Shown here piece by piece: positions 27,651-32,143 of a DNA stretch of 32,143 nucleotides; the first letter of the stretch is position 1, and each line of letters begins with the position of its first letter. The stretch comes from Actinomycetota bacterium (GTDB lineage: Bacteria; Actinomycetota; Thermoleophilia; Miltoncostaeales; Miltoncostaeaceae), in contig CAUJCX010000005.1 of NCBI GenBank assembly GCA_963169235.1, positions 1 through 32,143 on the forward strand, given 5' to 3'. Made by a program: the position numbers and the translations under genes. Below the pieces are notes generated by a model. That model had not been told where the DNA came from and did no database searches. It saw nothing but the letters and a program-made list of their open reading frames with translations.

Positions 27651-28892
27651 TCAGGCCCCGGCGGGCGTCACCACGAACTGGCGCAGATACAGATCGCGGA
27701 ACGTCACGGGGCCGCGCGGACCCGGCACGTGGTCGACGTTGATGCCGGTCTCCGGCGCCGCCAGCAGCTTGAAGCCGTCCAGCAGCCGGGTCGTGGCGTT
27801 CCAGAACGCACCGGTGCCGGCGTAGTCGGCGATGAACCCGTCGGCGGCGGCGGCGTCCTCGGTGACGATGGTGGCGGCCAGGCCGGAGGTCTCGGCGTTG
27901 GCGGTTGCCGCGGCCTCGGCGTACGAACCCACCGGCGCCACCGTCACGTGCGCCTCGTCACCCTCCTGCAGCGCCCACTCGAGACCGAGGGCGTGGTCGT
28001 GCGGGGGCAGCGCCAGGGTCACCCCGGCGTCGTCGGCGGCGGCGCGGGCCACAGCCAGCGCGTCGTCCCACACGGCGGTGTGCACCAGCAGCAGGTTGAG
28101 GCGGTTGCACACGCCCAGGCGGTCGAGCCCCTCGCGCACCAGGCGGGACGCGGTGCCGAGGTCGGCCGCCTGGTCGACGTACATCACGCCGCCGCCGTCG
28201 GCGTGGGCCATGGTGCGCACGCCATGGGCCGCCGCGTGGGTGCCCAGCTCCCGGGTGGTGGGGCCGCTGCCGCGGATGATCACCAGCGGGATGAGCGCGG
28301 GCATGCTGACGAGCGCCCGCGCCCCCTCCCGATCGGGCGAGCGCACCAGCTGCACCGCGTCCTCGGGCAGACCGGCGGCCGCGAGGGCCGGGGCGATGAC
28401 GTGGTCCACGAGGGCCTCGGCCGAGCGCAGTGCCGCACCGCCCGTGCGCAGCACGCCCGCGTTGCGGCTCTTGAGCAGCTGGGACGCGACGTCCACCGTG
28501 ACGTTGGGGCGCGCCTCGTAGTTGGCGCCGATGACGCCCACCGGGCGCCGGCGCTCCTGCATGCGCAGGCCCCCGGGGAGCTCGCGCGTGGCCACCACCG
28601 GGTCGGGGAACGGCGTCGCGGACAGGATCTCGATCTGCTGGGCCATCGCCGCCAGCCGGCCTTCGTCGAGGCGCAGGCGGTCGCGCATCGCGTCGGGGAA
28701 CGCCGGGTCGAGCGCGGCCACATCCGCCGCGTTGGCGTCCAGCACGGGGCCCGACGCCGCCGTCAGGCGCGCGCGGATGCCGTCGAGGGCGGCGGTGACG
28801 GCGTCGTCCGGGGCGGCGGCCAGGCGCGGCGCGGCGCGGCGGGCGGCGTGGCCCGCCTCGGCCACGAGGTGGGAGATCTCGCTGGTGGTCAT
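27651..28892 (-). CDS. proA: Glutamate-5-semialdehyde dehydrogenase-like protein (divergent ProA)
   Basis: Aldehyde dehydrogenase-superfamily protein of 413 residues. ProA reduces glutamyl-5-phosphate to glutamate-5-semialdehyde in proline synthesis. RRRPVGVIGANYEARPNVTV matches the ProA cofactor region strongly, and the catalytic cysteine is Cys262 in LGVCNRLNLLLVH. The C-terminal third departs from the family: the usual glycine-rich FGxGxE segment is replaced by FKLLAAPETGINVD, and the tail reads FRDLYLRQFVVTPAG. No proB or obg lies next to it; an MFS carrier follows. ATG 28892 has GGAAG upstream. It is either the proline enzyme of a divergent lineage or a paralog with another acyl-phosphate substrate. 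Confidence 0.75.
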   Translation of the reverse strand: MTTSEISHLVAEAGHAARRAAPRLAAAPDDAVTAALDGIRARLTAASGPVLDANAADVAALDPAFPDAMRDRLRLDEGRLAAMAQQIEILSATPFPDPVVATRELPGGLRMQERRRPVGVIGANYEARPNVTVDVASQLLKSRNAGVLRTGGAALRSAEALVDHVIAPALAAAGLPEDAVQLVRSPDREGARALVSMPALIPLVIIRGSGPTTRELGTHAAAHGVRTMAHADGGGVMYVDQAADLGTASRLVREGLDRLGVCNRLNLLLVHTAVWDDALAVARAAADDAGVTLALPPHDHALGLEWALQEGDEAHVTVAPVGSYAEAAATANAETSGLAATIVTEDAAAADGFIADYAGTGAFWNATTRLLDGFKLLAAPETGINVDHVPGPRGPVTFRDLYLRQFVVTPAGA

Positions 28893-28989
28893 CCGCCGAT
28901 TCTTCCACGGCGGCCGCCTCCGCGCCGTGTGCGCCCCCGCATTGGTGTCACGCAGTGCCGCGGGGCCGCACGAGGGCCGAGGTTCATGC

Positions 28990-29006
28990 TTAGGTTGAGG
29001 TTGAGG
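28990..29006 (+). repeat. Short tandem repeat TTAGG-TTGAGG-TTGAGG
   Basis: Three near-identical 5-6 base units in a row lie in the 250-base divergent gap between proA and the FG-GAP gene. Tandem half-sites like this can bind winged-helix or MerR-type regulators. The rest of the gap is very GC-rich, with partial inverted repeats near 29038-29076, and shows no clear promoter. Confidence 0.3.
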
Positions 29007-29129
29007 CTGGCCGAAGGCGCGCGCCCCCCGCGCCCTCGCACGCGCGGTGCGCCGCCCGCACGTGCCGCGCGCGTGCGGATTCGTCAGCTTTTCACGGTTT
29101 GGTGCCGATGAGATCTGTGACCCGTCCAC

Positions 29130-29145
29130 GGAGGGACGCGCCATC
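29130..29145 (+). promoter_or_regulatory. Shine-Dalgarno with apparent AUC start codon
   Basis: GGAGGG (29130-29135), a seven-base spacer and then ATC (29143-29145), in frame with the FG-GAP protein. No ATG, GTG or TTG exists in frame between here and ATG 29224. That ATG would leave only a stub of the signal peptide and has no ribosome-binding site. Confidence 0.5.
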
Positions 29146-32143
29146 TCGTTCGGCCCCAAGAGAGCCCGCCGCCCCCGGCGGCCCGGAGCCCGCCTACGCG
29201 CGCGGTGGCTGGTCGGCGTCCTGATGGGCCTTCTGGTGATGGCCGGCGCCGCCCACGCGGCACCGGTGGCGACCACCGACCCGGCCACGGGGCTGGTGTC
29301 CGGTGGCGCGACGCTCAACGGCACGGTCACGCCCGATGGCGTGGCCACCAACGCGTGGTTCGAGTACGGCGACACGACGTCGTATGGCTCCTCGACCGCT
29401 ACCACCGCAGTGGGCGCGGGATCGGCCGCCGTGCCCGTGTCCCAGTCGGTGACCGGCCTTTCGTACAACACGCTCGTCAACTTCCGCGTGGTGGCCGATG
29501 ACGGCGGCGGTCCGGTGTATGGGGCCAACCGGACGTTCCTGGTGCCCGATACCACCGCCCCCGGCGTGCCGGCGGTCAGCGGCGGCTCCGCCACGTGGCG
29601 GACGGTCGCGTCGATCGCCATCGTCGCCTCGGGGTCGACCGACTCCGAGTCGGGGATGGACCGATACGAGTACCAGACGTCCACCAACGGCGGCAGCACG
29701 TGGTCGGGTGTCACGGCGGGCGCGACGGCCACGGTGACCGCTCAGGGCACCACGATCGTGCGGTTCCGGGCCCGCGACACGGCGGGCAACGTGTCCGCCT
29801 GGACCGTGCCCGGCGCGGCCGCCACCGCGAAGATGGACCGCACGGCGCCGACGGTGACGACGTCGGGCGGAGCGTGGGCGTGGCGCCAGGCGCCCGCCAC
29901 CGTCACGGTGACCGGCGCGGGCGTCGACGCCCACTCGGGCGTCACCGGCCTGGAGCACCGCACCAGCGCCGACGACGGGGCGACGTGGTCGGCGGCCGCG
30001 CCCGGCGCCACCGTCGCCGTCAGCGCCGTCGGGGACACGCAGGTGCAGTTCCGCGCCACCGACGCGGTCGGCCACGTCGGCGCGTGGGGCTCGACGTTCC
30101 TGCAGGACCGGGCCCGCATCACCACGCAGCCGGGCATCGACATGGCGGCCACGAGCGCGCACCTCACCATCCGGGGGCGCCACGCCAACAACCTCGTGGG
30201 CAGCGGTGGCATCGCCGACGCGGGCGACGTCAACGACGACGGCATCTCGGACTTCATCGTGGGTGCGCCCAACGACACGGTCGCAGGGGAGCGGCTGGGA
30301 GCGGCGTACGTCGTGTTCGGCCGCGCCACGGCGGCGACGGTCGACCTGGCATCGCTGGGCACCGGCGGATTCCGCATCGGCGGGTCGGTGGAGGATGGCC
30401 GGTTCGGGGACGCGGTCGCCGGCATCGGCGACGTCAACGGCGACGGCTTCGACGACGTGGCCGTCGTCGCCTCCATCACCAACGGCCCGGTGGCCGACGC
30501 CGGGGCGGCCTACGTGGTGTTCGGCAAGGCCGACGTGGGCGCGGTCGACACGGGCACGGACGGCGCCTGGGGCTACCGGGTGGACGGGCCGTCGCCGTCG
30601 TACCCGTCCAACGCGGGCGACACGGTGGCGCCCGCGGGCGACGTGAACGGCGACGGCGTGCCCGACCTGCTCGTGGGCATCGCGGACGCCGACGCCGGTG
30701 CCCGCACCAGTGCCGGTGCCGCGTGGGTGGTGTACGGCAAGAGCACCACGGCGACGATCAGCCTGGAGTCGCTGACGCTGGCCCAGGGCTACCGCATCAT
30801 CGGCGCAGGCGATGACACCAAGCTCGGCTCGAGCCTCACGTCGCTGGGCGACGTCAACGGCGACGGGGTCCCCGACCTGGCCGTCGGCGCCGCCGATCAC
30901 GTTCCCGGCGGTGCCGACGCGGGCGCCGCGTACATCGTGTTCGGGCAGACCAGCCAGCTGGAGATCGACGTCGCGAACCTGGGCTCCCAGGGGCGCGTCA
31001 TCACGTCCGTGGGGGACAACCACCGGGCGAACACCGTCGCGGCGCCGGGAGACATCACGGGCGACGGCGTCGCCGACGTGCTGGTGGGGGCTGCCGGGGC
31101 GGGGTACCACGGGCGCCCCAGCAGCGGCAGCATCTACGCGATCTCCGGCGCCGGGTCGGGCCCCGTCGACCTGGCCGATCCCGGCGACGTGGCCTTCCGC
31201 GTCGACGGCGCCGCCAGCTCGGAGGGCATCGGCCTGGGCCTGGGCCCGTCGGCCGCAGACGTGAACGGCGACGGCATCAACGACGTCTTCGTGGGCCACA
31301 ACAACGGGCAGCGCGGACGGAACTGGTCCGGGACCGCGTACGTGATCATGGGCCGCACGACGTCCGGGGTGATCGACCTGCGCGACGCCGCCCCGGGCAC
31401 CATCCGCCTGGACGGACCCACCGGCGACGCGCGCTTCGGCTGGCGCCCCACGGTCGTCCCCGACGCCGACGGCGACGGCGTCCCCGACATCGCCGCCGCC
31501 GACGAGTCGACGGTGGCGGGGCTCGCGTCGGCCGGCACGGTGAAGGTGTTCAGCCTGCAGCGGGCGGGCGCGCTGCCGTCGGCCGGCACGTCGGCGGCCA
31601 CCGCCCTGGCGTCCGGCACCGGCACGCTCAACGGCACGGTCAACCCCAACGGCTCCGACACGACCCGCTGGTTCGAGTACGGCACCACCACCGCCTACGG
31701 ATCCACCACCACCACCATCGGCGCCGGCTCCGGCACCGCCGACGCCGACGTCGCCACCACCCTCACCGGCCTCACATACGGCGACACCATCCACTACCGC
31801 CTCGTCGCCGAAAACGCCGACGGCCACCGCACCTACGGCCCATCCCGATCGTTCTCGGTACCCGACACCACCGCCCCCACCACCCCCACCGTCACCGGCG
31901 GCTCCACCACCTGGCAATCCGTCGCCTCCATCACCATCACCGCCTCAGGATCCACCGACACCGGCGGCTCCGGCCTCGACCACTACCAGTACCAAACCTC
32001 CACCAACAGCGGCAGCACCTGGAGCGCCGCCACCACCGGCGCCACCGCCACCATCACCGCCGAGGCCACCACCCTGGTGCGCTTCCGCGCCGTCGACGCC
32101 GACGGCAACACGTCCGCATGGACCACCCCGGACGGCGACGCCA
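29143..32143 (+). CDS. Large exported FG-GAP propeller protein with Fn3/Ig-like modules (3' end outside window)
   Basis: At least 1000 codons, open at the right edge. From the ATC at 29143 the N-terminus is a strong signal peptide: a basic stretch with KRARRPRRPGARLRARW, then hydrophobic VGVLMGLLVMAG and an AHA cleavage site. An Fn3-like module (29266-29550) with WFEYGDTTSYGS and two Ig-like modules (to about 30110) follow. Then come seven FG-GAP/integrin-alpha repeats, each with a calcium-loop motif such as GDVNGDGFDD, near 30227, 30427, 30637, 30847, 31048, 31258 and 31459. These should close a seven-bladed propeller. After it, the Fn3/Ig pair returns (31570 onwards, WFEYGTTTAYGS) with different codon use. 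Likely a surface adhesin or extracellular matrix protein; ligand unknown. Confidence 0.88.
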   Translation, partial: MSFGPKRARRPRRPGARLRARWLVGVLMGLLVMAGAAHAAPVATTDPATGLVSGGATLNGTVTPDGVATNAWFEYGDTTSYGSSTATTAVGAGSAAVPVSQSVTGLSYNTLVNFRVVADDGGGPVYGANRTFLVPDTTAPGVPAVSGGSATWRTVASIAIVASGSTDSESGMDRYEYQTSTNGGSTWSGVTAGATATVTAQGTTIVRFRARDTAGNVSAWTVPGAAATAKMDRTAPTVTTSGGAWAWRQAPATVTVTGAGVDAHSGVTGLEHRTSADDGATWSAAAPGATVAVSAVGDTQVQFRATDAVGHVGAWGSTFLQDRARITTQPGIDMAATSAHLTIRGRHANNLVGSGGIADAGDVNDDGISDFIVGAPNDTVAGERLGAAYVVFGRATAATVDLASLGTGGFRIGGSVEDGRFGDAVAGIGDVNGDGFDDVAVVASITNGPVADAGAAYVVFGKADVGAVDTGTDGAWGYRVDGPSPSYPSNAGDTVAPAGDVNGDGVPDLLVGIADADAGARTSAGAAWVVYGKSTTATISLESLTLAQGYRIIGAGDDTKLGSSLTSLGDVNGDGVPDLAVGAADHVPGGADAGAAYIVFGQTSQLEIDVANLGSQGRVITSVGDNHRANTVAAPGDITGDGVADVLVGAAGAGYHGRPSSGSIYAISGAGSGPVDLADPGDVAFRVDGAASSEGIGLGLGPSAADVNGDGINDVFVGHNNGQRGRNWSGTAYVIMGRTTSGVIDLRDAAPGTIRLDGPTGDARFGWRPTVVPDADGDGVPDIAAADESTVAGLASAGTVKVFSLQRAGALPSAGTSAATALASGTGTLNGTVNPNGSDTTRWFEYGTTTAYGSTTTTIGAGSGTADADVATTLTGLTYGDTIHYRLVAENADGHRTYGPSRSFSVPDTTAPTTPTVTGGSTTWQSVASITITASGSTDTGGSGLDHYQYQTSTNSGSTWSAATTGATATITAEATTLVRFRAVDADGNTSAWTTPDGDA
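30214..31560 (+). repeat. Seven FG-GAP repeats (beta-propeller)
   Basis: Seven units spaced about 180-210 bases apart, each with a D-x-(N/D/T)-x-D-G-x-x-D calcium loop. Variants are DVNDDGISD, DVNGDGFDD, DVNGDGVPD (twice), DITGDGVAD, DVNGDGIND and DADGDGVPD. Most are followed by a GxAYVVFG-like strand, with IRLDG- or YRVDG-like strands between units. Units are diverged at DNA level, so this is an old repeat rather than a recent expansion. Confidence 0.85.
31570..32143 (+). repeat. Second Fn3/Ig-like module with distinct codon use
   Basis: Protein-level repeat of 29266-29830: TLNGTVNPNG versus TLNGTVTPDG, YQTSTNSGSTWS versus YQTSTNGGSTWS, and VRFRAVDADGNTSAW versus VRFRARDTAGNVSAW. From about 31682 on, threonine is written almost only as ACC (about 37 of 39 by my count) and alanine mostly as GCC. 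The first copy mixes ACG and ACC about evenly. It continues past the window edge. Confidence 0.75.

Follow-up and report, generated by a model that had tools for sequence, protein, structure and literature searches.

A probable AUC start codon on the gene of a giant exported repeat protein, and apparent near-cognate starts in its bacterial family

Natural starts at codons other than AUG, GUG and UUG have been described in several bacteria. The rnhC gene of Listeria starts with ATC, as confirmed experimentally (PMC13068326), and in E. coli CTG, ATA, ATT and ATC are functional at reduced rates, as summarised in the same study (PMC13068326). Among mapped starts of Caulobacter crescentus, CTG accounts for 0.7% and other near-cognate codons for 0.25% (PMC4117421), and one of the upstream sites reported by an N-terminomics study of E. 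coli is an ATC start (PMC13245402). Weak initiation would agree with in vitro work in which IF3 acted against weak third-position pairs (PMC10158994). AUC is a rare start codon a priori, at <0.3% of starts in the cited genomes.

Here, we analysed a window of 32,143 nucleotides, which is the entire contig C5 of a genome of the family Miltoncostaeaceae (Actinomycetota; GCA_963169235.1; 2.94 Mb, 65 contigs, 73.7% GC). Its 3′ end holds the first part of a gene for a giant exported protein (Table 1). The last 141 nt of C5 (window 32003–32143) are identical to the first 141 nt of contig C50 (L096:1–141), on which the reading frame continues, giving a protein of ~3,685 residues in total; the gene was split between the two contigs by the assembly at a repeat. 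FG-GAP (PF01839) was detected in both parts, with 108.1 bits in the window and 96.8 bits on C50 (Pfam gathering cut-off 22.1), and an Fn3 match (PF00041) was found on C50, in a protein with Fn3-like repeats. Because the upstream neighbour is divergent, the start of the giant gene falls in an intergenic region of ~250 bp and does not form part of an operon. We presume this neighbour to be proA, a name based on its N-terminus. The intergenic region also contains a short tandem repeat, TTAGGTTGAGGTTGAGGCTGG (window 28988–29010), and a TANNNT-like element at about 28991. An Rfam scan returned no match, and scans for promoters and terminators found nothing.

Table 1. Features of the giant gene and its surroundings (window coordinates), and genes with putative near-cognate starts elsewhere (locus and contig coordinates; G000 is the genome under study).
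Feature	Position	Strand	Evidence or remark
Giant exported protein gene, 5′ part (1,000 aa in window)	29143..32143	+	Pfam, contig overlap
Divergent neighbour, aldehyde-dehydrogenase superfamily, proA-like	27651..28889	-	Pfam PF00171; starts ATGACCACC
Alternative in-frame GTG, no SD	29047..29049	+	duplex +1.9 kcal/mol
GC hairpin CCGCACG...CGTGCGG covering GTG 29062	29056..29078	+	sequence, fold
Alternative in-frame GTG in hairpin	29062..29064	+	fold
Predicted 5′ UTR hairpin, SD near tip, ATC in 3′ arm	29098..29160	+	fold, -29.5 kcal/mol
Shine–Dalgarno GGAGGG	29130..29135	+	sequence, anti-SD duplex
ATC, proposed AUC start codon	29143..29145	+	SD; poor canonical alternatives
Sec-type signal peptide, 39 aa	29143..29259	+	translation, exported-type gene scan
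First in-frame ATG, in hydrophobic core	29224..29226	+	sequence; duplex -4.5 kcal/mol
RNase III, putative CTG start	L139:18677 = G000:C47:38677	+	also L257, L262, L263, L271, L272
rsmG, putative start at CTGA overlapping the upstream gene's stop	L148:19208 = G000:C20:59208	-	
rluD, probable ATC start	L132:3561 = G000:C39:3561	+	
RNase G-like gene	G001:C60:55441 (in L181)	-	
Exported-type gene, putative CTG start in CTGA overlap	L147:4974 = G000:C20:24974	+	

The original prediction placed the start of the giant gene at an ATC codon behind a near-perfect Shine–Dalgarno (SD) sequence. The arrangement is as described, with GGAGGG separated by a 7-nt spacer, and so at normal spacing, from an in-frame ATC at 29143; the SD is indeed strong, but is better described as a 5-nt GGAGG core. 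Its duplex with the anti-SD, for which the usual bacterial sequence was assumed in this host, has an energy of -10.0 kcal/mol and ranks above ~88% of confident starts. No other near-cognate codon in the n-region has a strong SD. Translation from ATC 29143 reads ISFGPKRARRPRRPGARLRARWLVGVLMGLLVMAGAAHA followed by APVATT and yields the complete signal peptide that had been proposed, with a basic arm, a hydrophobic core and a terminal AHA. From this translation and a scan of the exported-type genes of the genome, the sequence has the basic n-region, hydrophobic h-region and AXA site of Sec-exported proteins. Its n-region of 21 residues is among the longer ones in this genome, just under the 95th percentile (median 7, 95th percentile 22, 99th percentile 27 among exported-type genes). 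The coding signature of the basic arm (29143–29208) is weak, ranking at the 2.6th percentile among true gene starts, and the arm includes the rare codons AGA and CTA; the coding signal climbs only from about 29209.

To judge how often such an arrangement occurs by chance, stretches of the genome were sampled (0.84 Mb, then 1.22 Mb) and genes were predicted by codon usage and third-position GC. Duplexes of -10 kcal/mol or stronger stand before 12% of confident starts, against 2.3% of background positions, a difference of about 5-fold. Among the 185 exported-type genes that have an ordinary start, four (2.2%) have a near-cognate codon with an equally good SD 10–35 codons before the core, and the number falls to one (0.5%) when only ATC, ATT, ATA and CTG are counted. 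The probability of a chance coincidence is about 0.5–2%, before allowing for the gene having been picked from a 32-kb window. Across the sampled stretches there was no genome-wide excess of SD sequences before ATC codons near gene starts (16 seen, 14 expected), so that AUC is not in common use as a start codon here.

Prodigal and similar gene callers weigh only ATG, GTG and TTG. We searched for genes that lack all three near the onset of coding, both in the genome under study (G000) and in related genomes. The gene for RNase III (rnc; Pfam match) starts at CTGA in six species (G000, G001, G012, G019, G022 and G025), none of which has an ATG, GTG or TTG at that place, and the overlap of this CTGA with the acpP stop was seen directly in G000, G001, G012 and G025. 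For rsmG, the CTGA of G000 is replaced at the same position by ATGA in G022 and G025 and by GTGA in G019. The gene upstream of rsmG is presumably R3H/Jag-like, and the N-terminus of rsmG holds a parS-like site, TTTCACGTGAAAC, translated as VSRET. In rluD (Pfam match), an ATC codon with a modest SD (-5.6 kcal/mol) corresponds to ATG in 13 relatives, the N-termini aligning without gaps, and in six others (G006, G012, G013, G020, G023 and G025) a CTGA lies one codon away. In G001, the nearest relative, a GTGA occupies a neighbouring position and the lengths differ by 1 nt; this leaves room for an indel in one of the two genomes and weakens the rluD parallel. G001 also has an RNase G-like gene in which a CTG in a CTGA overlap follows four bases after AGGAGG and reads LNTKILVSVDPWETRVAL. 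In G000 itself, the CTG of the exported-type gene on C20 (Table 1) is preceded by AGGTGATC, an extended SD match. Two further candidates were discounted. A CoaE-like gene without a canonical start (G000:C35:115141, + strand, in L121) fits a CTG start as well as a 1-nt indel, and an exported gene at G000:C35:163588-163414 (- strand, in L124), which has GTA at the expected start and whose 84-codon frame ends in an in-frame stop, is probably broken. Judged by these gene comparisons, near-cognate initiation looks real in the family, and the AUC start probably has a second case in this genome, in rluD.

No ortholog of the giant gene itself was found in the genus, in the family or among 399 class-level genomes. 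The genus has one further genome, G001, in which the proA side aligns up to about window position 28940 and is then followed by a groEL-like gene. Domain homologs are present in the family and in 154 of the 399 class genomes; they have the repeats in common with the window protein, but not the position of the gene. Homologs with clear starts use ATG or GTG and carry full signal peptides. Three FG-GAP/Fn3-like giants of the family (G006:C53, G015:C134 and G010:C112) resemble the window protein in sequence and in their N-terminal signal peptides, but those of them with a clear start use ATG or GTG, and none is a same-place ortholog. The homolog on G015:C134 has a similar n-region (MPTGRAPGHTPYGRPPRRRTARGWVLCVLIALLM...) behind an ATG start with an SD, which shows that for such proteins a long arm rich in arginine and proline is nothing unusual.

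RNA folding was also considered as support for ATC 29143. The codon seemed to be favoured when a short window was folded, but was paired in a longer one (unpaired probability 0.04, 16th percentile); we therefore let structure count solely against GTG 29062, whose predicted unpaired probability of 0.00 is among the lowest 1% of starts. The predicted hairpin at 29098–29160 neither supports nor excludes an ATC start, and would fit low translation.

GTG 29062 had been put forward as the lone in-frame alternative upstream, and as one without an SD. There are in fact two such codons, GTG 29047 and GTG 29062, and the latter lacks a strong SD but has a weak one (-5.3 kcal/mol). Initiation at one of them would give the signal peptide an extremely long basic arm, which we regard as unlikely: the n-region would extend to ~53 residues from GTG 29047 or 48 residues from GTG 29062, against a 99th percentile of 27, GTG 29047 has no SD and GTG 29062 is fully paired. 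This holds even though GTG is a common start, used at 217 of the 454 confident ones, most genes do without a strong SD and no stop interrupts the frame from 29005 onwards. Codon composition is uninformative, since 29047–29142 scores no worse than 29143–29208 and both lie between coding and non-coding sequence. A start inside the hydrophobic core, at CTG 29209, ATG 29224 or GTG 29236, would leave a minimal signal peptide or none, or imply that the gene is improperly expressed. ATG 29224 is, as previously described, the first in-frame ATG, and the rise of the coding signal near 29209 would suit such a start; it lies within the core without a basic arm or a strong SD. All three codons are poorly served in this respect (-1.1 to -4.5 kcal/mol), and using them would discard a complete basic arm together with the first part of the core, in a protein whose homologs carry full signal peptides. 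We consider a start in the core very unlikely. GTG 29047, GTG 29062 and ATG 29224 are all poor, though conceivable, starts.

An error in the assembly, or a minority variant, had been named as the main alternative. We retain it as a rival explanation but judge it quite unlikely. Either the start codon was misread, or a missing base hides a start at ATG 29108, which lies in another frame and would come into frame if the assembled sequence lacks one base between 29108 and the core; a few other genes in the genome do look broken near their starts. ATG 29108, however, has no strong SD, and the 141 nt that C5 and C50 share exactly point to a short-read de Bruijn assembly, probably with k = 141, in whose consensus single-base and homopolymer errors are rare. 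The CTGA starts that recur across several species cannot be errors.

Initiation at AUC 29143 remains the best available reading of this locus and is backed by the near-cognate starts in the family, but falls short of proof, as no ortholog was found. We assign a probability of roughly 0.6 to a genuine, probably weak AUC start, as read from the sequence. Ribosomes would bind GGAGGG at 29130, and the initiator tRNA would start at AUC 29143 and insert fMet despite the third-position mismatch. The 39-residue signal peptide would then send the ~3,685-residue repeat protein out of the cell. We infer that initiation does take place at AUC and that its yield is low, the latter because AUC is weak in E. 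coli; the hairpin may act as a further brake, and its predicted fold around the SD and ATC is at most compatible with weak translation. It is reasonable to suppose that a weak AUC start might throttle the production of this giant surface protein.

Taken alone, the gene yields a corrected start and an example of what may be weak initiation on a giant surface protein. AUC starts have been described before, and a lead of greater interest is the conserved use of CUG, with AUC now and then, in the family. Start-codon stringency may be relaxed there, a proposal to which we give somewhat less than even odds: CUG, and sometimes AUC, would be ordinary, conserved starts in ~1% of genes, all of them misplaced by gene callers. 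The genes concerned would be the exported giant and three genes that begin in stop-start overlaps, namely rnc, rluD and rsmG. Where an AUC or CUG start is real, annotation loses the signal peptide or the N-terminus, and standard annotation would hide the conserved CUG and AUC use of the family. If housekeeping genes such as those for RNase III, RluD and RsmG do keep CUG or AUC, the family would offer a natural system for studying how IF3 and the initiator tRNA set start-codon stringency.

Among described systems, Caulobacter crescentus shares the GC-rich genome; its starts were mapped by ribosome profiling and LC-MS, whereas the start proposed here was derived from sequence and comparison. The natural AUN non-AUG starts of Listeria, rnhC (ATC) and infC (ATT), belong to housekeeping genes with mapped initiation, while the present gene encodes an exported repeat protein in a GC-rich draft genome. 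Both Listeria starts are conserved and experimentally confirmed (PMC13068326), and the likeness to the giant gene lies in the AUN start codon.
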